This document shows, one piece after another, positions 1 through 10,671 of a stretch of DNA of 64,000 bases. The notes below the pieces were generated by a model. That model was not told the origin of the DNA and searched no databases. It worked only from the letters and a program-made list of their open reading frames with translations. How positions within the stretch are numbered: position 1 is the first letter of the stretch; each line of letters opens with the position of its first letter. Position numbers and translations under genes: made by a program. This stretch comes from Geodermatophilus sp. DF01-2 (GTDB taxonomy: Bacteria > Actinomycetota > Actinomycetes > Mycobacteriales > Geodermatophilaceae): positions 1 to 64,000 of the forward strand of contig NZ_SPQN01000011.1 of the NCBI RefSeq assembly GCF_004571065.1. Reading direction: 5' to 3'.

Positions 1-129
1 GGGCACCAGTACCGCCGCCGTGAGCCCGGGGGTGTCCGGCCGCCAGGCGAACTCGCGGACCGCGAGCCGGTACCGGTCGGTCGCGGCAAGAGTCACCAGG
101 TCGTCGTCGATCTCCAGGCGGACGCCGCG
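1..129 (-). pseudogene. dnaN: Internal fragment of DNA polymerase III beta clamp (dnaN)
   Basis: Read on the minus strand this edge encodes about 43 residues containing LEIDDDLVTLAATDRYRLAV and ending TAAVLVP. This matches the middle domain of actinobacterial DnaN sliding clamps, where the ATDR(F/Y)RLAVRE signature is highly conserved. It has no start of its own: it begins abruptly where the GAP1-like gene stops making sense, in a different frame, and continues off the window. It is either a rearranged dnaN segment, a clamp-like domain gene, or a chimeric join at a contig end. The identity of the peptide is well supported; the reason for its position is not. Confidence 0.7.
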
Positions 130-1034
130 TTGCTCCCGCGGGCCAGCCAGCCCGGCGCGGCGCCGGACTCCAGCACGCTGGCCAGCTGGTCGGCCGTCAG
201 CGTCCCGGCGTCCTGCTCGGCCCAGGCGTCGGCGAACAGCCAGACGTCCAGGCGGCGCAGGTCGGCCAGGTCGTCCGGCGCGAGCTCGGCCTTGACCGCC
301 GCCTCGAGCAGCGTCCGGGCCCGCTCGGTGTCGGCCGTGGGTGCGGCGGGGGGCGATAGGGCCCCGCGCCCCGGGGCCTCGACCAGCTCCACGGTGATCG
401 GCGCGGTGTCGCCGTCGTCCTCCCGGGTGCCGGCGTGCAGCGACACGCCGGCGGCCAGCGCCCGGGGCAGGACGGTGAACACGACCTCGGCCACCTCGCG
501 GCCCGTCGGGGTCCGTCGCGGCAGGGTGCAGGCGCCCGTCCCCGCGGCGAGCGCGGCCAGCACCTGGGCCAGCGGGGGGGTGAGGGCGTCGACCTCCTCG
601 GGGGTCAGCGGCGGCACGCCGCGGTCGGCGAAGGTCACCGGTAGCGGCGGCAGGTCGGCGGTGGGGGAGGAGTCGCCGGGCAGCTCGTCGAGGAACCGGC
701 CGGCCCGACGCAGCGCCAGCAGCTCGCGGACGCCGAGCCGGCCGCTCTCGTCCCACAGCAGGTGCACCAGGTAGTTGCCGGGGCGGCCGAAGTCGTCGGC
801 GCGGGCGGCGACCGTGCGGTAGAGCACCCGCCCCGTCCCGCGGGAGAGCAGCCCGTACGCCTCGCCGTCCCCCGGCCGGAAGCCGACCAGCGCCCCGAGC
901 ACCTTGCGGGTGCGGCCGACCTCGGCCGGCCAGTCCGCCGAATGCGCGTAGACGCCGAAACCCGGCCCCTCCAGCGTGCGGCTGGCGGAGGTGTAGAGCG
1001 CCTGCGGACAGGCCCGGCCGCTCATCGCGACCAC
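93..1034 (-). CDS. GTPase-associated protein 1 (GAP1-N-like), 3' end disrupted
   Basis: The 313-residue product begins with a block (YTSASRTLEGPGFGVYAHS, then a VLYRT segment and FGRPGNYLVH) typical of the N-terminal domain of GTPase-associated protein 1 of actinobacterial GTPase conflict systems. These act with a cognate GTPase, probably as adaptor or regulator. The start overlaps the end of the GTPase gene by 13 bases, so the two are translationally coupled. The last ~19 residues (from about position 150 leftwards) are out of register with the dnaN-like reading frame in the same DNA, and usual family members are much longer, so the gene is almost certainly truncated here. The family call rests on remembered motifs; no enzymatic residues are visible. 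Confidence 0.6.
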   Translation of the reverse strand: MVAMSGRACPQALYTSASRTLEGPGFGVYAHSADWPAEVGRTRKVLGALVGFRPGDGEAYGLLSRGTGRVLYRTVAARADDFGRPGNYLVHLLWDESGRLGVRELLALRRAGRFLDELPGDSSPTADLPPLPVTFADRGVPPLTPEEVDALTPPLAQVLAALAAGTGACTLPRRTPTGREVAEVVFTVLPRALAAGVSLHAGTREDDGDTAPITVELVEAPGRGALSPPAAPTADTERARTLLEAAVKAELAPDDLADLRRLDVWLFADAWAEQDAGTLTADQLASVLESGAAPGWLARGSNAASAWRSTTTW

Positions 1035-2194
1035 TCGCCGCGCAGGCCCGCGCCGTACTCCTCCGGGTCGAGCCCCTCCTCGGAGAGGAAGCCGGACCGG
1101 GCCAGCAGCACCAGCAGCGGATCGAGCACGCCGGCCGGCGCGATCCGCGGGTAGCCGCCGTCTCGGGCGTCGGCGCCGGTGGCCGAGACCGCGTGCACGG
1201 TCGGCCGGGGCAGCCGGTGCAGCACCGCGGTGAGCAGGTTGGAACCGCCGCTGACCTCGAGGAAGTCGACCAACCGGGAGCTGTTCTGCCGCACGTCGGC
1301 GAACCAGTGCGCCAGCGGCGCCGCGCGCAGGTCGGGATCCCGCAGCGTGTCGGCCGGGAAGTCCGGCACCGCGCGCAGCTTGTCGGCCTTGCTGAGGACG
1401 ACGGCGGTCGCGACGTCGTCCAGGTGGCTGTCCGGCGGCAGGTTGCGGGCGCTGCGCAGCACGTTGGCCAGGTTGACCACCATCTGGGTGTGCCGGGCCA
1501 GGCCCATCGAGTCCTCACCCGGATCGGCCACGTGTCGCAGCCGCGGAAAGACGCCCGGGGAGAGCACCACAAGCACCGCCGTCGCGGCGTAGAGGAACCT
1601 GCCGTACTGGCCCATGTCCTCGCTGCGGTAGAGCTGCTCGCCCGAGGCGTCGAAGAAGACCAGGTTGACCGAGCGTTCGGCTCCGTTCCGGCCCGCGCCG
1701 CGCAGCACCAGCATGAACGGCTCCGGCGAGCTGCCCTGGCCCAGCAGCGGCAGGGTCAGCGGCAGCTGCTGGCGCTGCACCATCAGCCGGTAGCGGTGGT
1801 CGTCGAAGCGGGCCGCGCTCTCCTCGTCCATCTCCACCGAGATGCCGAGCGGGGCCAGCGCCCCCTCGTGCAGCAGGTCGACGAGCACGGTGAGGTAGGT
1901 GCTCTTCGACGCGCCGGTCAGCCCGACCAGGCCGACGACGATCGTCGGCCGGTCGAGGTACTCCGGCGGCAGCCGGTGCCCGCGGGGGCAGGTGGGCACG
2001 ACGTTGGCCGCGGCCGCGCCGGCGGCGTCCCGGGCCGTCGGCGCGGGCAGCGGGTCGGCCCGCAGCGGGTCGAGCAGCCGCTGCCAGCGGCTGCGGCGCT
2101 CGACCGGCGGAGGCTGGGGCGCGCCGGTCGCGTCGCGCCAGATCGGCGCGGACAGGGTCTCCAGACAGCGGGGGCAGACGCGGCGCCTCATCAT
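1022..2194 (-). CDS. Zinc-ribbon TRAFAC-type GTPase of a kinase/GTPase/GAP1 operon
   Basis: A 390-residue protein. Two N-terminal Cys clusters (CPRCL at ~8-12 and CPRGH at ~71-75) form a likely zinc ribbon. A P-loop follows (VVGLVGLTGASKSTYL, ~87-102), in which the usual Gly before Lys is Ser. A switch/Walker B FFDASGEQ and a specificity motif VVLSKADKL (an NKxD variant) complete a GTPase of the 'double-GTPase' type found with GAP1 proteins. It starts at tandem ATGs; the first overlaps by one base the stop of the upstream 45-residue membrane protein (TGATG). The predicted role is a nucleotide-dependent switch downstream of the linked kinase. The Walker A variation may alter nucleotide handling. 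Confidence 0.65.
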   Translation of the reverse strand: MMRRRVCPRCLETLSAPIWRDATGAPQPPPVERRSRWQRLLDPLRADPLPAPTARDAAGAAAANVVPTCPRGHRLPPEYLDRPTIVVGLVGLTGASKSTYLTVLVDLLHEGALAPLGISVEMDEESAARFDDHRYRLMVQRQQLPLTLPLLGQGSSPEPFMLVLRGAGRNGAERSVNLVFFDASGEQLYRSEDMGQYGRFLYAATAVLVVLSPGVFPRLRHVADPGEDSMGLARHTQMVVNLANVLRSARNLPPDSHLDDVATAVVLSKADKLRAVPDFPADTLRDPDLRAAPLAHWFADVRQNSSRLVDFLEVSGGSNLLTAVLHRLPRPTVHAVSATGADARDGGYPRIAPAGVLDPLLVLLARSGFLSEEGLDPEEYGAGLRGEWSR

Positions 2195-2331
2195 CAGCGG
2201 ACGAACAGCGCGAAGAAGAGGACGGCGGTCACGCAGAAGACCGCCAGCAGCACCCGCTGGCGCTCCCGGAACCGCTGGCGGCGCGCGTCGAGCCGCTGCT
2301 GGGCCAGCGCGCGCTCGTACATCCCGGACAC
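2194..2331 (-). CDS. 45-residue single-span membrane protein between kinase and GTPase
   Basis: A GTG start at 2331 is preceded at ideal spacing by AGGAGG (2338-2343). An in-frame ATG at 2322 is an alternative. The product is a short, charged, Arg-rich helix (ERALAQQRLDARRQRFRER) followed by one hydrophobic segment (VLLAVFCVTAVLFFALF), ending at TGA that shares one base with the GTPase start. The strong ribosome site and TGATG coupling argue that it is a real operon member. The topology suggests a C-tail or N-in anchor that could tether the soluble GTPase to the membrane, as the kinase is tethered. No family is recognised. Confidence 0.6.
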   Translation of the reverse strand: MSGMYERALAQQRLDARRQRFRERQRVLLAVFCVTAVLFFALFVR

Positions 2332-2360
2332 GGTGCTCCTCCTCGGTACTCGGGGCTCGG

Positions 2361-2414
2361 AAGACGACGACTCAGAAGACGACGACTCAGAAGACGACGA
2401 CTCAGAAGACGACG
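2361..2414. repeat. 15-bp tandem repeat spanning the kinase stop codon
   Basis: Three exact copies of AAGACGACGACTCAG (2361-2375, 2376-2390, 2391-2405) plus a 9-base partial copy. On the minus strand each unit reads as the last codons of the kinase (Val-Val-Phe-stop). Loss or gain of whole units leaves the protein unchanged but alters the gap to the next gene's ribosome site. Confidence 0.9.
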
Positions 2415-3505
2415 TGGTACAGCACGGCCAGCACCAGCCCGGCGACGACGCCCAGCAGCACCATCGCCACCGCGGCGACGGCGAAGCCGGTCCAGGTGTC
2501 GGCGACCGCCCGTTCCAGCCGGGCCAGCTCGTAGCGGGCCGCCTCGGTCACCGCCCCCAGGGACTGCAGGTCGCGCATCGTCGTCCGCGGGTCGGGGATC
2601 TGCGAGGTCTGGCCGAGCCAGCGGGTGCGCTGCTCCACCTGCCGGGCCAGCTGTGCCACGGTCGGCCGTCGCTCGGGGTTGAAGCGCAGCGCGCGTTCCA
2701 CGCTGTCGAGCAGGTTGGCCGGCACGCGGGTGAGGTCGAGCCGGCCGGCCCGCAGCGCGAGGTAGTAGTCGGAGTCGGGCATGGTGTCGTCGGGGTCGAC
2801 CGGATGCGCCGCGCCCGCCGCGAAGGCGATCACCATGCCCCAGCTGTAGACGTCGCTGGCCTCGGTGAGCACGGCGCCGGCCAGCTGTTCGGGGCTGGCG
2901 AACAGCTTCGTGCCCAGTACGGCCATGCCGGTGGTGGCGGTGCCCGCCGGTGACTCCGGGCCGATGTAGCGGCTGATCCCGAAGTCGACCAGCCACACCT
3001 CCGAGCCGGAGATGATGATGTTGCCCGGCTTCACGTCCCGGTGGACGACGCCGGCGGCGTGCACGTCGCGCAGCGCCCGCAGCAGCCCGATGGCGATCCG
3101 GCGCAGCTCCTCGGCGTTGAGCCCGCCCGAGCGGGAGGCCATGAACTCGTCCAGCGGCGTGCCGGCCACGTACTCCTGCACGTAGTAAGGCGCGTCCGCG
3201 GCGAGATCCTGGTCGATGATCGCGGCGACCCGGGAGCTCTTCACGCGGGCGGCGTTCTCCACCTCCCGGGCCAGCCGCTTGCGGGCCAGCTCCGGCGCGG
3301 CCTCGGGCAGCCGCTTGATGACGACCAGCGCGCCGTCGGGGCCGGCCGACCCGACGAACACGTCGGCCCCCTGGCCGCCGCGCGGCAGCCGGCACAGCAG
3401 GTCGTAGGGACCGATGCGGTCCGGGTCGCCGGGTTCGAGCAGGCCGATCTGGCGGGTCCCGGCCAGATCGGCCACCGCTCCGGCGGGGTCGAGCGCCTCG
3501 TCCAC
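2402..3505 (-). CDS. Membrane-anchored Ser/Thr protein kinase (PknB-like)
   Basis: A 367-residue Hanks-type kinase. A Gly-rich loop lies at ~41-47, the ATP-binding Lys in VVIKRL (K64), the catalytic loop HRDVKPGNIII (155-165), DFG at 174-176 and an activation-segment/APE equivalent FASPEQL. All catalytic residues are present. After a linker, a single C-terminal transmembrane segment (last ~27 residues) anchors the kinase domain with almost no extracellular part, so it lacks a PASTA-type sensor. It starts at GTG 3505. It is the first gene of the minus-strand kinase / small membrane protein / GTPase / GAP1 operon, which suggests it phosphorylates a member of that system. Confidence 0.85.
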   Translation of the reverse strand: MDEALDPAGAVADLAGTRQIGLLEPGDPDRIGPYDLLCRLPRGGQGADVFVGSAGPDGALVVIKRLPEAAPELARKRLAREVENAARVKSSRVAAIIDQDLAADAPYYVQEYVAGTPLDEFMASRSGGLNAEELRRIAIGLLRALRDVHAAGVVHRDVKPGNIIISGSEVWLVDFGISRYIGPESPAGTATTGMAVLGTKLFASPEQLAGAVLTEASDVYSWGMVIAFAAGAAHPVDPDDTMPDSDYYLALRAGRLDLTRVPANLLDSVERALRFNPERRPTVAQLARQVEQRTRWLGQTSQIPDPRTTMRDLQSLGAVTEAARYELARLERAVADTWTGFAVAAVAMVLLGVVAGLVLAVLYHVVF

Positions 3506-3691: not shown

Positions 3692-3719
3692 GGCGGTGAG
3701 TGCACCTGCACTCACCGCC
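3692..3719. promoter_or_regulatory. 28-bp perfect palindrome between divergent kinase and XRE genes
   Basis: GGCGGTGAGTGCA (3692-3704), a 2-base centre, then its exact reverse complement (3707-3719). With one mismatch the arms extend to 17 bases. There is no T-run. It lies in the 400-base gap between the minus-strand kinase operon (start 3505) and the plus-strand XRE regulator (start ~3906), where an operator is expected. A binding site for the linked XRE protein is the simplest guess; a bidirectional stem-loop is the alternative. Nothing else was recognised in 3506-3905. Confidence 0.55.
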
Positions 3720-3905
3720 CGAGCGTCCCGGGAGGGACACCTGCCGGCGCGGTCGCCACCGGCTCGCTCGGCGGACCGGGGACGGTGGGACCGGGGAACC
3801 GGTGCACGGCGGGGTCCTGGTGTGGTCGTCTCCACAGCGAGCGGGCTCCTCCACACCTGCTGGTCGGCGAGGCCGACGGTCCCGGTGGGACGACACCCTT
3901 GGGAC

Positions 3906-4541
3906 GTGTCGTCCTTCGACCTCTCCGGGGTGCTGCGCCGGATCCGCCGACGGGCCGACCTGTCCCAGCGACAGCTGGCCGCTGTCTGCGGGCTGTCGCA
4001 GTCGGCGGTGGCGCAGGCCGAGAGCGGGCGGCGCGACCTGCCCGTCGGCGCCCTTGTCCGCGCCGCCGAGCAGGCCGGCCTGCGGCTCGCGCTGCTCGAC
4101 GCGGCCGGCCGCGAGGTCGCCGGGATGTCGCCGGACGCCGTGCGCGACCGCTACGGCCGCCACTTCCCGGCCCACCTCGACACCCACTTCGCCGACGAGC
4201 GCGAGGGGCGCTACGAGCACCGCTACGACCGCCCGCGCCCCTGGTTCACCGTGGACGTGGACCGGGCCGCGCGCGACACACTCCGAGGCCGCCTCGGCAC
4301 GCCCGAGGACCACCACCCCGTGCGCCCCGGGGACTCGCCGCAGGAGCGACGTGCCCGGCGCCAGGAGGCCGCACGGCAGCGCCGACAGGAGGAGGCGCGG
4401 CGGAGCCGGCTCGCCGGGGCGGGTCCCCGCGTTGCCGACGAGTTCGCCTGTCGCTGTCCACCGGCCTGCGACGAGCTGGATGACGGCAACGGGCGGCCGG
4501 TGCACTCCCCGGACTGCCCCTGTGGGTGCGACCTGGGTTGA
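3906..4541 (+). CDS. XRE-family transcriptional regulator
   Basis: The chosen GTG at 3906 gives 211 residues beginning just before a canonical helix-turn-helix (LRRIRRRADLSQRQLAAVCG then LSQSAVAQAESGRRDLPVG). A longer frame back to 3696 would run through the palindrome and lacks plausible protein. The central region (residues ~75-110) is conserved-looking with RYGRHFPAHLD and Tyr/His-rich segments. The basic C-terminal half ends in a Cys cluster (CRCPPACDE, DCPCGCD) that could bind metal. It is divergent from the kinase operon and is a candidate regulator of it. There is no strong ribosome site, so a leaderless start is possible. Confidence 0.7.
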   Translation: MSSFDLSGVLRRIRRRADLSQRQLAAVCGLSQSAVAQAESGRRDLPVGALVRAAEQAGLRLALLDAAGREVAGMSPDAVRDRYGRHFPAHLDTHFADEREGRYEHRYDRPRPWFTVDVDRAARDTLRGRLGTPEDHHPVRPGDSPQERRARRQEAARQRRQEEARRSRLAGAGPRVADEFACRCPPACDELDDGNGRPVHSPDCPCGCDLG

Positions 4542-4563: not shown

Positions 4564-7500
4564 TCAGCCGGCGATGAGGTGACCCGACTCCTGGCGCACC
4601 AGCCGGCCGGCGTCCAGGACCCGGGTCAGCGCGGCCTGCAGCAGCGGGGCGAGGGACGGCGTCCGGCGGCGGTAGCCGAAGACCTCGGCGGTACGGACGA
4701 GCAACTCGTCCTCGGCCATCCCGGCGGCGGCGGACCGGCACAGGGCCACCATGGCGTTGCCGATCTCCTCGGGCGTGACGTGCTCCAGCGGCCGGTCGGC
4801 GCTCGACCCCTGGCGCCGGAAGCCGGTCCAGGCCGCGGGGTCCAGCGACTCGGGCCAGACGAACTCGCCGTCGACGGCACCCGCGGGCAGCAGGGCCAGC
4901 AGCGCGTCGCGGCGGGCGTCGCTGACCCGGGAGAGGCCGAAGGCGCCTGCGGTCAGCCGGACCAGCCGGTCGCGGTGCACCGGTCCCTCCGCCCTGAGCC
5001 CGGCGGTGAGCACCCGCCGGACGGTGCGGGCGGCCCGCGGGTCGTCGAGGGAGTCGAGTGCCCTGCGCTCGCCGCCGCTCCTGGGCGTCCACGGCACGAA
5101 GAGGGTCTCGCCGTCCAGCAGCGGCGCGACCGGCGCCTTCTTCGCCGTCCGCCGGGCGGGCTTCGCGGACGGCGGCGGCTCGGCTCCGGCGGTCTCCGCG
5201 GGCGCCGCCGTCTCGGACCCGGCGGCTTCCGCGGGCGCCGCCGGGCCGGTCACGACGGGCTCGACGACCACCGAGGGCCCGGCGCGCAGCGGGACGACCG
5301 ACCGCACCTCGGCGGCCGGCGGCGCAGCAGGCGCCGGCACCGGCGGGACGACGGCCACCGGCACGACGGCGACCGGGACGACGGCCGCCGGCTCGGCTGC
5401 GGGTTCTGCGGCCACCTGCGCCGGCACGGCGACGGCCGGCTCGAGCACCGGCACCGCCGCCACCGCGGCGTCCAGCCGGTCGAGCACCGCCTCGCGGTCG
5501 CGCAGCCACGTCGGCAGCCACACCCGCTCGACGGCGGGCCAGCCCAGCATCCCGGAGAGCACCTCGACCGGCAGGCCGTCGCGGTCGCCGACCGTGCGCC
5601 GCCGCGCCCACGCCGGACCGTCGAGCAGCACCGCCAGCACCGGCTCGTCCGGGGTCTCGCCCCGCGCCACCGACAGGTCGACCCGGAACTCCGAGAGGCC
5701 GACGTCGGTGCGCACGCTCAAGCCCCGGTCGCGCAGCGCCGCCGCGACCTCCTCGCGGTGCCGGTCCGGGACGGCGACCGGCCGGGCGTCCCGCGGCAAC
5801 GCGTCGGTGCCCAGCGCGGCCAGGTCGAGGTAGGCGCGCAGGTGCTTGACGCCCACCGACGAGGTCTGCTCGGCGCGCAGCTGGGACGGGTCGAAGGAGG
5901 AGAAGACGACGACCTGCCGCCGGGCGCGGGTGACCGCGACGTTGAGCCGCCGCTCGCCGCCGACGCGGTTGAGCGGCCCGAAGTTCAGCGGCAGGGAGCC
6001 GCGGTCGTCGACGCTGAACCCGGTGGAGAACAGGACGACGTCACGCTCGTCGCCCTGCACGTTCTCCAGGTTCTTGACGAACAGCCCCTCGCCGTCGGTG
6101 CGGTCCAGCGCCTCGACCAGCCGCTCGTCGCCGGCGTCGCGCAGCAGACCCTCAACGTAGGCCCGCTGCTGGGCATTGAAGGTGACCACGCCGATCGAGG
6201 GCAGGGTGTCCGGGGAGGCGTCGAAGCGGCGGCGGACCTCCGCGACGACCGCCTTGGCCTCCATCGGGTTGGTGCGCAGCAACCGCCCGGCGCCGGTGCG
6301 GTGGAAGGTGCCGTTGACCCGCACCAGCGAGATGCCGCGGCCGTCCGGCCCGGACGACGGCCGGCCGTGGGTCGGCGCCGGGAAGGACGAGAGCCGGTTG
6401 TCGTAGTAGGTGGCGTTGCTGAACGCGATGAGGGACTCGTCCTGGCTTCGGTAGTGCCACGACAGCCACTGCCGCGGCACCCGGGCCTGCACGCACTCGG
6501 AGAGGATCGACTCCTCGTCCTCGACCGCGGTGCCCAGCAGCTCGACCGCGTCGTCCTCACCGGTCCCGGCCACCGGCTCGGCGAAGGACGTCGGTGGCAT
6601 CTGCCGGCTGTCCCCGACGATCACCGCCGCCTTGGCCCGACCCAGTGCCCCGACGGCGTCGGCCACCCGGATCTGCGAGGCCTCGTCGAAGACGACCAGG
6701 TCGAACAGGCTCGCCTCGGCGGGGAAGAACCGCGCCACCGAGTCGGGGCTGACCAGCACGCACGGCAGCGCGGTGGTGACCAGCTCGCCGTACCGGGCCA
6801 GCAGCCCGCGCACGCCGAGCCCACGGCGGGCCTCGGCCAGTTCCCGCTGCAGCGCACCGACCTGCCCGTCGCCGGAGGCCGCGTCGAACGGCCGCGCGGC
6901 GAGCACCGAGCCCGGCAGCGCCGTCCGCAGGTGCGCCCGCACCGCACGCGAGGCGGCGGTGAACCGGCTGATCGCCCGCTCGTGCGCGTGCGCGTCGAAG
7001 CCGTCGAGCCCGGAGGCGTCGCGCCGTTCGGCCACCGAGGCCAGCGCGAGGCCGCGCTCGAGCGCGCGGACGGCGTCCTCGGCGGGCAGCTCGCCGCTGA
7101 CCAGCAGCGCCCGCGCCTCGTGCAGGCCCGCGGCGCGCAGCGGCTCCAGGGTGTCGACGAAGTCGGCCCACCGGCGCAGCGACATCAGGCCGGTGTGCTC
7201 GACGCCGCGCTCGGGGCGGGTCATCTGCCAGCGCAGCACCAGCCCGTCGTCGCCGGCCCAGTCGGCCAGGCGCCCGGAGTCACTGCTGCACACCCGCAGC
7301 AGCGCGGCCACCGCGTCGCGCAGCCGGGCCACCGCCGCGCCCACGGCGGCGTCCGGGCCGGGGCCCTGGACCACCCAGCGGCGCAACGCGACGGCGAACT
7401 CGCTGGCGCTGTCGGTGGCGGCGCCGGCCCGCTCCAGCCACTCGACCTGCCCGACGAGCAGCTCCGGGTCGGCCAGCGGGTTCCAGGTGGGCGGCACGGA

Positions 7501-10500
7501 CAGGCCCGGGATCACCGAGGCGCGGGCGACGATGCCCTGGGCGGCGGTCTGCACCCGCCACAGCTGGGCGGTGAGCTCGGGGACGTCGCGCAGCTTCACC
7601 TGCACACCCGGCCGCAGCACCGGCGCCAGCTGGCGGCGGACGACCTTGAGCCCCTTCCGGCGGGCCGTCCACCGGCCGGCCTGCGCGGTCTGCGCGGTGA
7701 CGTACAGCTCGGCCAGCGGCAGCTCCAGCGCGGCGGGGGTGGCCCGCTCCAGCCCCGGGTGGACGGCGCTCGTGAAGGCGGCCACCTCGCCGAGCACCGC
7801 CGTCGTCGCCACCGCCCACCGCTCGGTCGGCACCTCGTCGAGCACGTCGAGCGGCGTCGGTGGGCCGGACAGCAGGTGGGCCAGCGCGCCGAGGTCCCCG
7901 GGCGTGCGGACCTCGCGCAGCGCGCGGGCCAGGTGCGGTTCTCCGGGGATCTCCCGGATGGCCTGGTCGACGGCGGCCGCGGTCTGCTGGGCGGCGAGCA
8001 GGTCGACCCGCGAGGTGTCGACGAACGCCCAGGCGTGCCGCGGCGAGGGGCGCACCAGGTCGGCGATGTCGGGAAGGAGCGCCAGGGCGCGGCGCACCGC
8101 GGTGAGCGTCTCCTCCGACGCGGCGGCCACGAACGCCGGGGACAGCGGCAGGCAGGGGACGCCGTCCGGCGTCGACAGCACCGCCGTCCGCGCCGAGTAG
8201 AACGACAGCCCGGCGGCGTTCTCCGCGTGCAGCCGGTCGGCGTAGCGGGCCAGGGTGCGGCGGGCCGAGCGCAGGTCCGCGCCGTCGTAGCGGCTCCGTT
8301 CGTCGGCGGGACCCTGCTCGTCGACGGCGACCGCGTGCTCCAGTGCCGCCTTCACCTGCGCCCGCACTCCTGCGGCCTTGGCGCCCTTGTCGTGCAGGTC
8401 GAGGACGAACGGGCCCATGCCCACGGCCTCCAGCCGCCGCGCGACGACGTCCAGCGCCGCCCGCTTCTCGGCGACGAACAGCACCTTCTTGCCGTCGGCG
8501 ACCGCGCGGGCGAGCAGGTTGGTGATGGTCTGCGACTTGCCGGTGCCGGGCGGGCCCTCCAGCACGAAGGTGCGCCCGGCGGCGGCCTCGGCGACCGCGC
8601 GCAGCTGCGAGGCGTCGGCCGGCACCGGGCACCGGGCGGCCAGCTCGTCGAGGTCGGTGGCGCCGACGGTGTCGGGGACGGGGTCGGCATAGGCCTCGGT
8701 CGGCCGGTGCACGAGGTGGTGCACCAGCGGGTTGGCGGTGAGGTCCGCCCAGTGCTCGTCGAGGTCCTTCCAGAGCCGGTACTTGGCGAACTGGAGGACG
8801 GCGAGGTCGGCGGTCGGCTCGACGCGGTGGGGGAGCCCGGCGTCGGCCAGCGCCTGCCGCACGGCCTGCAACGCCTTGTCGAGGTCGAGGCCGGCGCCGT
8901 CCTCGACGGTCTCGGTGAGCCCCGGGACGGTCAGGCCGTGCACCTGCCGGAGCTTCTCCAGCAGGCAGTGGTTGGGCGTGCTCGACCCCGTGTCGTCGAT
9001 GGTCAACCGGTAGACGCCGTTGCGGCTGGTCGGGGTGAGGATGACCGGCACCAGCACCAGCGGGGAGCGCAGCGGGCGGCCGTCGAGCTCCCACACCAGG
9101 CTGCCGAGGGCCAGGTAGAGGTTGTTGGCGCCGGTCTCCTCGCGGACGGTCCTGGCCTTGTAGGCCAGGTGGCGCAGCCGCGGCAGGTAGCCGCCCTCGC
9201 TGACGTCGGCGTGCACCGCCCTGCGCTCGACGAGGACCTCGGCCAGCTGCGTGGCCGGCAGCTCGCGTGCGGAGGTGACGCCCCGCTCGCGGTGGACGGC
9301 GGCGATGCGGTCGCTGGGCAGCAGCGAGACGGCGGTGCCGGTCTGCAGCAGGTCCTCGAGGGCGGCCAGGTGCGTCGCCGGGACGGTCAGCGGCAGCCCG
9401 GCGCGCTCGGTGTAGTTGATCAGCCGGTTGCGCAGCGAGAGGTCGAGCAGGCTGTTCTTCCACTGCTGCACGCGAGCCGGTGGAAGGACCCCGTCCTCCT
9501 CACCCCTCGCAAGCTCGGGGCGAGCCTCGGGACGGGGCCGTGGAGCGTAGGGGGGTCCTTCCGGGGCCGCGACGCCGTGCACCGCGGGCCGGTACTCGAC
9601 CACCTGCACCGCGCCGTCCCGGCCGCGGGTGCGGGCCGGCAGCGGCACGATGCCGTCGCGCCGGGCCCGGTGGACGTCGGTGACGCCGAGGACCCGGTCG
9701 AGGTCGCCGGCCAGCCAGGTGGAGTACGCCGGGCCGTGCAGGTCCTGCGGGGCGGCGTCCCGGGCGCGGCTGGTGAGCAGCGTGGTCTCGACCAGCCGGA
9801 TCAGCCCCAGGTCGACGAGGTTGACCAGCGGGGCGACGTCGGTGGTGGCGGCGCTCTCCCCGCCGCGCTCCTCGCGCCAGTAGCCGCAGAACGCGTGTCC
9901 CTCCGCTAGCCACAGCAGCGGCCGGATCCCGGCCTGCTCGAGCGTGGCGGCCAGCGTGACGGCGGTGTCCAGGCAGGTGCCGACCCGCCCGTCGAGGACG
10001 TCGCCGGGGGTGCGCACCTTCTGCCCGACGTCGGCCCAGCCGGCCGGCGGCTCGCTGTAGCGGATCTGCCGGCGGCGCATCGCCTCGGTGAGCGCGGCGA
10101 CGATCTCGTCGACCCGCTCCGGGCCGGACCGGTAGCCCTGCACCGACCCGCTGCCGGTGCGCTGCTCGAGCAGGTCGGCGGCCTCGCCGATCAGTGCGGT
10201 CACCGTCGGGTGGTTGGGCATGACGTGCGCGGCGAGCATCTCCAGCGCCAGCGGCACCGGCGCGGCCAGCCACTGGTTGGCGGCCAGCACCTGCACCGGG
10301 ACGGCGGTGCCGCCGACGTCCTCGCCGTCCACCAGCAGGTCGACCTCGACGGAGCCGGGGCGCTGCTCCTCGATCTGCAGCATCGCCGCCGGGTCCATGA
10401 CCAGGCCGACGTCGCTGAGCACCGTCGTCTGGCCCGCGTCGAGGTCGACCAGCACCTCGACGGCGCTGCCGATCGGGCCCTCGGCGTCCTGGACCCCGAG

Positions 10501-10671
10501 CCGCACCGTCGCCCCGCGCACCGCGCTGCCGTGGTTGGTGAACGCCAGCCGCGACACCACCGGGACGCGGTTGTGCGCCAGGGCGTAGCTGAGCACCGGC
10601 GTCGCGGTCGCCTGGATCGCCACGGCCGGCCGGGTTCCGGGGGTGGAGGGCCGGACGTCCGTGGTGCTCAT
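4564..10671 (-). CDS. Giant DUF4011/SF1 helicase-nuclease (Hhe-like defence protein)
   Basis: 2035 residues. In order: an Ig-like N-terminus (~20-120); a transglutaminase-like fold (VGTCLDTAVTLAATLEQAG with Cys, then AEGHAFCGYW with His, ~235-275); a DUF4011 helix (WKNSLLDLSLRNRLINYTE, ~400); a split SF1 helicase with Walker A GPPGTGKSQT (~700), DEAS (~1327), GDSRQMPPTSF and VAVTRARRQVV (~1580); an MTES_1575/Vsr-like nuclease region (~1640-1730); an Ala/Pro linker; and a C-terminal DUF3320-like winged helix. From memory this matches the Hhe antiphage architecture (DUF4011-helicase-Vsr-DUF3320). In the nuclease region the Asp of FRVDLSV is kept, but the position usually giving Glu reads AVLLDG. 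Residues ~370-397 are encoded by an inserted repeat. It stands alone as a single-gene unit. Confidence 0.85.
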   Translation of the reverse strand: MSTTDVRPSTPGTRPAVAIQATATPVLSYALAHNRVPVVSRLAFTNHGSAVRGATVRLGVQDAEGPIGSAVEVLVDLDAGQTTVLSDVGLVMDPAAMLQIEEQRPGSVEVDLLVDGEDVGGTAVPVQVLAANQWLAAPVPLALEMLAAHVMPNHPTVTALIGEAADLLEQRTGSGSVQGYRSGPERVDEIVAALTEAMRRRQIRYSEPPAGWADVGQKVRTPGDVLDGRVGTCLDTAVTLAATLEQAGIRPLLWLAEGHAFCGYWREERGGESAATTDVAPLVNLVDLGLIRLVETTLLTSRARDAAPQDLHGPAYSTWLAGDLDRVLGVTDVHRARRDGIVPLPARTRGRDGAVQVVEYRPAVHGVAAPEGPPYAPRPRPEARPELARGEEDGVLPPARVQQWKNSLLDLSLRNRLINYTERAGLPLTVPATHLAALEDLLQTGTAVSLLPSDRIAAVHRERGVTSARELPATQLAEVLVERRAVHADVSEGGYLPRLRHLAYKARTVREETGANNLYLALGSLVWELDGRPLRSPLVLVPVILTPTSRNGVYRLTIDDTGSSTPNHCLLEKLRQVHGLTVPGLTETVEDGAGLDLDKALQAVRQALADAGLPHRVEPTADLAVLQFAKYRLWKDLDEHWADLTANPLVHHLVHRPTEAYADPVPDTVGATDLDELAARCPVPADASQLRAVAEAAAGRTFVLEGPPGTGKSQTITNLLARAVADGKKVLFVAEKRAALDVVARRLEAVGMGPFVLDLHDKGAKAAGVRAQVKAALEHAVAVDEQGPADERSRYDGADLRSARRTLARYADRLHAENAAGLSFYSARTAVLSTPDGVPCLPLSPAFVAAASEETLTAVRRALALLPDIADLVRPSPRHAWAFVDTSRVDLLAAQQTAAAVDQAIREIPGEPHLARALREVRTPGDLGALAHLLSGPPTPLDVLDEVPTERWAVATTAVLGEVAAFTSAVHPGLERATPAALELPLAELYVTAQTAQAGRWTARRKGLKVVRRQLAPVLRPGVQVKLRDVPELTAQLWRVQTAAQGIVARASVIPGLSVPPTWNPLADPELLVGQVEWLERAGAATDSASEFAVALRRWVVQGPGPDAAVGAAVARLRDAVAALLRVCSSDSGRLADWAGDDGLVLRWQMTRPERGVEHTGLMSLRRWADFVDTLEPLRAAGLHEARALLVSGELPAEDAVRALERGLALASVAERRDASGLDGFDAHAHERAISRFTAASRAVRAHLRTALPGSVLAARPFDAASGDGQVGALQRELAEARRGLGVRGLLARYGELVTTALPCVLVSPDSVARFFPAEASLFDLVVFDEASQIRVADAVGALGRAKAAVIVGDSRQMPPTSFAEPVAGTGEDDAVELLGTAVEDEESILSECVQARVPRQWLSWHYRSQDESLIAFSNATYYDNRLSSFPAPTHGRPSSGPDGRGISLVRVNGTFHRTGAGRLLRTNPMEAKAVVAEVRRRFDASPDTLPSIGVVTFNAQQRAYVEGLLRDAGDERLVEALDRTDGEGLFVKNLENVQGDERDVVLFSTGFSVDDRGSLPLNFGPLNRVGGERRLNVAVTRARRQVVVFSSFDPSQLRAEQTSSVGVKHLRAYLDLAALGTDALPRDARPVAVPDRHREEVAAALRDRGLSVRTDVGLSEFRVDLSVARGETPDEPVLAVLLDGPAWARRRTVGDRDGLPVEVLSGMLGWPAVERVWLPTWLRDREAVLDRLDAAVAAVPVLEPAVAVPAQVAAEPAAEPAAVVPVAVVPVAVVPPVPAPAAPPAAEVRSVVPLRAGPSVVVEPVVTGPAAPAEAAGSETAAPAETAGAEPPPSAKPARRTAKKAPVAPLLDGETLFVPWTPRSGGERRALDSLDDPRAARTVRRVLTAGLRAEGPVHRDRLVRLTAGAFGLSRVSDARRDALLALLPAGAVDGEFVWPESLDPAAWTGFRRQGSSADRPLEHVTPEEIGNAMVALCRSAAAGMAEDELLVRTAEVFGYRRRTPSLAPLLQAALTRVLDAGRLVRQESGHLIAG
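9482..9562. repeat. 81-bp MITE-like repeat lying in frame inside the helicase gene
   Basis: It is bounded by perfect 11-bp inverted ends, GGAAGGACCCC (9482-9492) and GGGGTCCTTCC (9552-9562). The left part and the CCTCGCAAGCTCGGGGCG core match the intergenic copies near 53470 and 59998. Its length is a multiple of three and it encodes a 27-residue Pro/Arg/Glu-rich linker just before the DUF4011 helix, so it does not break the gene. Confidence 0.75.

Follow-up and report, generated by a model that had tools for sequence, protein, structure and literature searches.

A compact kinase, microprotein, DO-GTPase and GAP1 operon of Geodermatophilaceae as a candidate membrane-surface switch

A four-gene operon lies at the beginning of a 64,000-nucleotide stretch of DNA from Geodermatophilus sp. 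DF01-2 (contig NZ_SPQN01000011.1, positions 1 to 64,000; the whole stretch is called the window here). On the minus strand and in transcription order, it encodes a protein kinase, a microprotein of 45 amino acids (aa) with a single transmembrane (TM) segment, a zinc-ribbon DO-GTPase and a GAP1 protein of the GAP1-N2 type. We read the operon as a membrane-surface, kinase-gated GTPase switch and as a distinct compact subtype of the DO-GTPase/GAP1-N2 systems, and put the probability of this reading at about one half. A DO-GTPase/GAP1-N2 core with a kinase theme was already predicted to be a conflict system in 2020 (Kaur et al. 2020, PMC7159879, in the sections on these systems), and the kind is therefore known. 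What is new is the subtype, with a small TM open reading frame (ORF) between kinase and GTPase and, in most members, a Ser or Thr in place of the P-loop Gly before the Lys.

The original prediction, made from the letters of the window, had named the four products, and these names hold: kinase, GTPase and GAP1 fall into the Pfam families PF00069, PF19993 and PF20013, and the microprotein is recognised by its TM anatomy (coordinates in Table 1). The prediction had placed the operon at 1022-3505, a span that holds kinase, microprotein and GTPase and leaves the GAP1 gene (128-1025) outside. The tight coupling that it described was confirmed, as the microprotein stop and the GTPase start overlap by 1 base and the GTPase stop and the GAP1 ATG (1025) by 4 bases. 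Its check for co-conservation also came out positive, since all four genes stand together in 24/24 orthologous loci of Geodermatophilaceae, and the order kinase, small TM ORF, GTPase recurs in 11 loci of Propionibacteriaceae.

The microprotein consists of a basic cytosolic segment of about 25 residues followed by one C-terminal TM segment. Its ORF measures exactly 138 nt including the stop in all 24 orthologous loci, which belong to four genera. Over all pairs, pN/pS in its frame is 0.54, against values of 1.07 and 1.87 for the alternative frames, and the changes at codon positions 1, 2 and 3 (2618, 1802 and 3840) show an excess at the third. For three copies from Propionibacteriaceae, the in-frame value is 0.59. 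Because dS is underestimated in such GC-rich genes, it is the ratios from frame to frame that serve as evidence. Within Geodermatophilus, pN/pS is 0.39 for the kinase, 0.35 for the microprotein, 0.42 for the GTPase and 0.57 for GAP1; within the genus labelled g9, the values are 0.34, 0.50, 0.31 and 0.33 in the same order. Judged by these substitution patterns, the Geodermatophilaceae microprotein is under purifying selection. It is probably an obligatory subunit. Searches of Pfam and PADLOC gave no match to it, and NCBIfam gave just SepX/GlpR at E=0.036, far under its cut-off. An ORF of this size may be overlooked by gene finders.

Conservation is uneven along the microprotein. Residues 1-25 have a mean modal frequency of 0.837 and an entropy of 0.48, against 0.729 and 0.94 in the TM part, as a docking segment carried by a generic anchor would show. 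A Ser or Thr stands at position 2 in 23 of the 24 orthologues; the remaining one (L095) has neither residue in positions 1-25. This exception weakens the case for the microprotein as the general substrate of the kinase, a role for which it is poorly suited. That the microprotein is the split-off TM tail of GAP1 was ruled out, because a Microlunatus locus (L044, 9122-10885) encodes a GAP1 with its own C-terminal TM segment besides a separate microprotein.

The GTPase carries a zinc ribbon (C7/C10...C69/H73, CPRC...CPRGH) and the motifs DASG (G3), SKAD (G4) and SAT (G5). The ribbon amounts to one CxxC...CxxxH pattern, and Pfam ribbon matches to it are marginal. The unusual P-loop reported in the original prediction (GASKST, Ser in place of Gly) is present, the substituted residue being Ser96. 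In the alignment, the position that precedes the P-loop Lys holds Ser in 24/24 Geodermatophilaceae GTPases, and in the 11 kinase-type loci of Propionibacteriaceae it holds Ser in 6, Thr in 2 and Gly in 3. Ser or Thr thus occupies this position in 32/35 kinase-type loci vs 0/28 other DO-GTPases, where it is Gly throughout (28/28; 12 loci beyond the 16 that served as small-ORF controls). In Ras-like GTPases, changing this P-loop Gly upsets nucleotide binding. The remaining nucleotide motifs were compared in an alignment of 16 members (A1; 14/24 of the Geodermatophilaceae and 2/11 of the Propionibacteriaceae GTPases), all of which PF19993 matches at E<=10. DASG and SAT do not vary in it, nor do K and D within SKAD. 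A scaffold or a partner-loaded switch is therefore likelier than a dead remnant. Another odd P-loop, GXXXTAKS, is described by Kaur et al. (PMC7159879, in the sections concerned) for MoxR proteins of two other conflict systems. The AlphaFold model of the GTPase (pLDDT 79.8) shows a TRAFAC-type, Ras-like G domain.

The kinase retains its catalytic K, HRD and DFG motifs in 24/24 Geodermatophilaceae orthologues and is predicted from these intact motifs to be active. In all 24, a single TM tail ends 0-7 residues from the C-terminus, and there is no extracytoplasmic domain; the earlier description of a kinase without a sensor domain applies to the window protein. In PADLOC, the kinase matches the defence kinase family PD-T4-6 (E=1e-41), which may reflect general kinase similarity; GTPase and GAP1 gave no match there. 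Kinases of the Propionibacteriaceae loci have the C-terminal TM segment in 11/11 cases, 0-19 residues from the end, and some carry long N-terminal extensions. A 15-bp tandem repeat spans the kinase stop and the gap to the microprotein. Each unit restates the final codons of the kinase with the stop (VVF-stop), so the copy number could vary with the protein untouched.

GAP1-N2 is called above the Pfam cut-off in the window protein and in that of L029, and PF20013 matches 14/15 members of a GAP1 alignment at E<=10 (A2; 14/23 full-length Geodermatophilaceae proteins and 1 from Propionibacteriaceae). Full-length orthologues have about 530-565 aa. In the window, the gene is cut near base 127, because the window starts at the end of the contig (position 1). 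Residues 316-557 of a full-length GAP1 match another contig of the same genome (G000:C100:50324-51055), and bases 1-127, which hold a frame that we take to resemble dnaN, are identical to part of a third (C104). The frame break at about 127 is read from these two facts as an assembly artefact, and a fusion of GAP1 to another gene at the window start was ruled out on the same grounds. The operon is most likely intact in its Geodermatophilus host. The GAP1 model (pLDDT 86.9, pTM 0.68) gave no Foldseek match at E<=0.001. In a second structural comparison, residues 1-255 align with TagF (9t0n; Z 6.3, rmsd 4.9, 215 residues), the sole row of 50 that spans the N-terminal half of the model, at a Z below 8, which can be chance. 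Foldseek places TagF at rank 36 (E=0.45, prob 0.33). With no Pfam or PDB-sequence match for TagF kinship, it stays a weak fold lead. For the helical C-terminal half, the comparison gives many repeat proteins of similar fold at Z of about 5.

An orthologue of the GTPase (61-92% identity) is present in 24/112 genomes of the family and in 15/26 of Geodermatophilus; any match at E<=0.001 occurs in 26/112, two of these being weak. The helicase gene precedes the kinase in 13/13 Geodermatophilus loci whose upstream flank is covered, and a phytochrome gene follows the operon in 10/14 (window not counted). On a tree of this helicase, 2 label changes suffice to explain which members of the genus carry the operon, compared with a mean of 8.6 after shuffling, and 0/500 shuffles were as low. 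This tree is poorly resolved, with 5/26 inner branches well supported and 9/29 rows under half filled, and its midpoint root is displaced by one very long row among the outgroups. The helicase of one genome (G060) groups with the outgroups, and a paralogue may therefore account for the second label change. Ten of the 11 operon-less Geodermatophilus genomes were inspected, and in all ten the helicase, threonine dehydratase and phytochrome/SpoIIE protein genes adjoin without the operon, the flanks being joined at the place where other Geodermatophilus carry it. Other genera have the operon at other places, and within g9 many neighbours are common. A search with the window GTPase at E<=1e-3 found nothing among 72,556 plasmid and 50,697 phage records, and mobile carriage was rejected as an explanation. 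By this pattern of presence, the operon is clade-stable in Geodermatophilaceae. It seems to have settled there and to be passed on vertically, unlike the genes of fast-moving defence islands, though a defence gene that is stably inherited is possible, given the PD-T4-6 match of the kinase.

The subtype extends to a second family. The GTPase profile built from A1 matches 18/197 genomes of the Microlunatus family (that of G862; treated here as Propionibacteriaceae after the L043 title), and in 11 of the 18 the kinase is the next large gene upstream of the GTPase. The other seven comprise one locus of the Hsp70 type (L204), five with no kinase by profile (L201-L203, L205 and L206; L201 lies on a 3.6-kb contig) and one genome left out (G1056). 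Between kinase and GTPase, each of the 11 kinase-type loci has a 40-59 aa ORF whose one TM segment is C-terminal. These lengths, counted from the first possible start, are upper bounds: by this rule three Geodermatophilaceae copies come to 58-61 aa, against 45 from the homologous start. In sequence, the ORFs of the second family are distinct from the Geodermatophilaceae microprotein. A GAP1-like gene is supported in 7/11 of these loci, by profile in L043, L044, L192, L193 and L199 and by an alignment of the L194, L199 and L196 genes that matches GAP1 profile-profile (probability 97%, 168 columns); L195, L197 and L200 have candidate ORFs of suitable length, and in L198, where the contig ends, none is visible.

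Taken over both families, a small TM ORF stands between kinase and GTPase in 35/35 kinase-type loci (24 Geodermatophilaceae, 11 Propionibacteriaceae) vs 0/16 evaluable other DO-GTPase loci. Under a uniform criterion, the Geodermatophilaceae count is 23/23 evaluable; L036 and the control L161 were not evaluable, and the L036 microprotein was seen by other comparisons. The controls comprise 11 Hsp70 loci, 4 PP2C loci and L163 (contig cut), none of them with this kinase upstream, and in L156, L158, L160 and L162 the upstream gap of 5-16 bases leaves no room for such an ORF. The kinase type did not turn up in wider searches. It is absent from the 18 neighbourhoods inspected out of 26 other matching genomes among 394 of the class, and 391 genomes of the G862 order gave 11 matches, all in the Propionibacteriaceae genomes already counted, with no further kinase-type locus. 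The order of the window has 24 matching genomes among 397, inspection being confined to the family (8 lie outside it). The Pfam GAP1-N2 model reaches 8/396 genomes of the phylum.

According to the relevant sections of Kaur et al. (PMC7159879), a PP2C phosphatase and a standalone vWA protein usually accompany the kinase theme, the third of the GAP1-N2 systems, and an FNIII component is part of GAP1-N2 systems in general. Single-reference searches for PP2C, vWA, Hsp70, an FNIII-type protein and a second DO-GTPase found none in the covered flanks of 35/35 loci (short, at 3-9 kb, in L010, L193, L195 and L198). As a positive control, PP2C, vWA and a second GTPase were found in 4/4 theme-3 loci, of which L104 supplied the references; the reference proteins were checked by Pfam. 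The FNIII-type reference, whose own fn3 match is weak (E=0.0045), finds 3/4 control loci and misses L167. No effector domain was recognised in the operon.

As to how such a switch might work, the basic cytosolic segment of the microprotein would dock the GTPase, or GTPase and GAP1 together, next to the kinase on the cytoplasmic side of the membrane. The kinase would then phosphorylate the GTPase or GAP1 and flip the state of the pair. Nucleotide binding by the altered P-loop may be weak or depend on a partner, in which case GAP1 and/or phosphorylation, and not the GTPase's own cycle, would set the on/off state. In Geodermatophilaceae, hardly any of kinase or microprotein is exposed on the outer side of the membrane, so the trigger would be cytoplasmic or a state of the bilayer. 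Sequence shows the anatomy of the operon; what we infer is the docking, the part played by phosphorylation and nucleotide, and the output. As for its role, envelope or membrane surveillance is more likely, and defence by growth arrest is possible. The original prediction had suggested an immune switch, and Kaur et al. propose immunity for the class as a whole; for this operon, such a role is no more than possible.

Several observations weigh against this reading. The docking role is suggested by topology and conservation only, and in g9 constraint is weaker on the microprotein (0.50) than on its partners (0.31-0.34). The profile of the Geodermatophilaceae microprotein reaches only L196 of the second family (E=2e-4), so common descent of all the small ORFs is unproven. 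The canonical P-loop in 3/11 Propionibacteriaceae GTPases means that the alteration is not essential to the architecture. Among the distant Propionibacteriaceae, Pfam scores are weak: in L194, the GTPase scores 18.1 bits (cut-off 27) and the kinase 28.3 (cut-off 31.7), Pfam recognises the GAP1-like gene of neither L194 nor L196, and the L044 GAP1 falls 0.1 bit short of the Pfam cut-off. Kinase motifs vary in Propionibacteriaceae (HGD, DLG), and motif patterns did not find all of them; the kinases of L197, L198 and L200 carry further hydrophobic stretches upstream. Finally, L170 (6540-10414) has a kinase upstream of a DO-GTPase, but what separates the two genes is a multi-TM ORF (five hydrophobic stretches) and no microprotein.

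The most substantial alternative is a module for envelope-stress or developmental signalling without a defence role, comparable to YcjX and the Psp response. Inheritance stable by clade and the placing of kinase and microprotein at the membrane suit it. The structural evidence points both ways: in the second fold comparison of the GTPase model, YcjX heads the list (Z 15.1, rmsd 3.9, 242 residues aligned), tied by the rule of the tool with a Rag-like GTPase (Z 14.2, 175 aligned), whereas Foldseek puts EF1-alpha, EF-Tu and atlastin first and YcjX at rank 26, and no YcjX family is among the Pfam matches of the A1 GTPases. A DO-GTPase-family protein does occur in some pspFABC-type operons, with a predicted membrane-stress role, in the part of PMC11237479 that treats them. 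On the other hand, the operon is missing from 11/26 Geodermatophilus genomes and is hence dispensable. We hold this module to be possible, and would sooner expect it to be wrong than right. A plain GAP1-N2 conflict system, in which sensing of a phage or invader frees an effector that kills or arrests the cell and the kinase sets the threshold, is in our view unlikely, if still worth serious consideration. The core pair is the same in kind as the published one, a kinase fused to TM helices is one published form of theme 3 (PMC7159879, in its account of that theme), the kinase has its PD-T4-6 match, and with 24/112 genomes the distribution in the family is patchy. Such a system sits poorly with the flanks free of the usual partners in 35/35 loci and an operon without a recognised effector, with presence that follows the genus tree, with the joined flanks in 10/10 operon-less genomes and with the empty plasmid and phage searches.

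Two further alternatives concern the microprotein itself. It could be the effector, a small pore-forming or membrane-damaging toxin restrained by GTPase and GAP1. It is small and basic with one TM segment, the operon offers no other effector candidate, and published GAP1-N2 systems use membrane pore (SLATT) effectors (PMC7159879). Yet it is the cytosolic half and not the TM segment that is better conserved, the length of 45 aa is constant over four genera, and the gene sits between two regulatory genes, with its stop overlapping the GTPase start in the window; a toxin therefore appears improbable to us. That the ORF is a chance open frame has the general point in its favour that GC-rich actinobacterial DNA is full of long spurious ORFs. 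Identical length in 24/24 loci, in-frame purifying selection, the third-position excess and the recurrence of the anatomy in a second family already contradict it, and we give it next to no credence.

The genes beyond the kinase do not belong to the system. The original prediction had noted an XRE regulator and an Hhe-like helicase beside the operon, and both were rejected as parts of the system. The XRE-type gene lies between helicase and operon, is divergent from the kinase and was found in 0/34 other loci searched (L042 and L115 being the same place). A 467-aa piece of the helicase was found in 26/26 Geodermatophilus genomes, with the operon present or absent, so the helicase behaves as a core gene, independent of the operon. 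Other small genes occupy the slot between helicase and operon in L036; by appearance, they may be a VapBC-type pair. Relatives of the helicase also lie <=10 kb from the operon in two genomes of other genera (L096, 3857-4453, and L099, 19277-19804), with 76% and 82% identity over about 180-200 aa and otherwise different neighbours. The threonine dehydratase gene stands between helicase and operon in L036 (4599-5882) and after GAP1 in L035 (10938-12191), which shows that gene order around the site has been reshuffled.

Table 1 Features of the operon and its surroundings in the window
Feature	Position	Strand	Basis
Ser/Thr protein kinase, 367 aa, kinase domain at about residues 44-288	2402..3505	-	Pfam PF00069, E=5.2e-29
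Tail-anchored microprotein, 45 aa, GTG start	2194..2331	-	ORF list, orthologue comparison
Zinc-ribbon DO-GTPase2, 390 aa	1022..2194	-	Pfam PF19993, E=1.3e-9, above its cut-off
P-loop GLTGASKS, residues 91-98, Ser96 replacing the usual Gly	1901..1924	-	Sequence
GAP1 (GAP1-N2), N-terminal part	128..1025	-	Pfam PF20013, E=2.2e-7, above cut-off
Contig-end duplicate, outside the operon	1..127		100% identical to internal stretch G000:C104:30386-30512
15-bp tandem repeat, 3.9 copies, across the kinase stop and the kinase-microprotein gap	2356..2414		Tandem Repeats Finder
XRE-type regulator	3696..4541	+	
Helicase, DUF4011/MTES_1575	4564..10671	-	PADLOC PDC-S37, E=1.1e-260

Among known systems, the third theme of GAP1-N2 is the closest. 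The operon shares with it the zinc-ribbon DO-GTPase, the adjoining downstream GAP1-N2 and a kinase, predicted active, with a TM segment, as well as the actinobacterial setting (PMC7159879, as far as its description of the theme goes). The kinship with published GTPase-GAP1 conflict systems that had been proposed is thereby borne out, with DO-GTPase2 and GAP1-N2 assigned by Pfam. The accompanying claim that the composition is not catalogued is only partly sustained: the kinase/GTPase/GAP1-N2 theme was already published, whereas the operon is without PP2C and vWA neighbours and has a small membrane gene that goes unmentioned in that description. The published GTPases usually carry two zinc ribbons at the N-terminus (PMC7159879, same sections), against the one pattern seen here with its marginal Pfam matches. 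The P-loop Gly is replaced by Ser/Thr in 32/35 loci, unlike the published theme. The Hsp70 theme (e.g., L101, L156-L160) is alike in its DO-GTPase2-type GTPase, with an Hsp70 gene upstream and in most loci also an FNIII-type gene; it differs in having no kinase by profile, no small TM ORF before the GTPase and a canonical P-loop. YcjX, a stress GTPase (PDB 6NZ4-6NZ6), resembles the GTPase model in fold only. Conservons (CvnA-D) are likewise compact operons of actinobacteria in which a kinase-like protein is combined with a small GTPase, but they are built from a histidine-kinase-like protein, a roadblock protein and a small Ras-like GTPase. They are not known to include a DO-GTPase or GAP1.

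The open-access literature, outside which most subscription journals lie, yielded no experimental study of DO-GTPase/GAP1 systems. The compact four-gene form supplies a defined microprotein subunit, a sharp sequence marker (Ser/Thr for the P-loop Gly) and hosts that are harmless soil bacteria, and thus brings an abstract "conflict system" down to the size of an assay: does the microprotein recruit the GTPase to the membrane kinase, and does the odd P-loop bind GTP? A last comparison, with the threonine-phosphorylation control of type VI secretion (T6SS), is offered as a hypothesis and not as a result; the TagF fold lead drew attention to it because four T6SS roles match the four roles in the operon. 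In Agrobacterium, PpkA phosphorylates the inner-membrane protein TssL, one partner of the ATPase TssM, and TagF represses the T6SS (PMC5995506, in the passages on this pathway); TssL is C-tail anchored (PMC3426401). By analogy, the kinase would correspond to PpkA, the microprotein to the tail-anchored TssL, the GTPase to the Walker-A NTPase TssM and GAP1 to the regulator TagF. The differences are that the TagF match is weak and that no secretion genes were noticed nearby, where no search aimed at them was made. A minimal, effector-less actinobacterial switch on this plan, with the microprotein as an obligatory and so far overlooked fourth subunit and with an altered P-loop that makes the GTPase rely on partners for nucleotide loading, is a long shot. 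If it were true, DO-GTPase/GAP1 conflict systems and type VI control would share an ancestral membrane switch.

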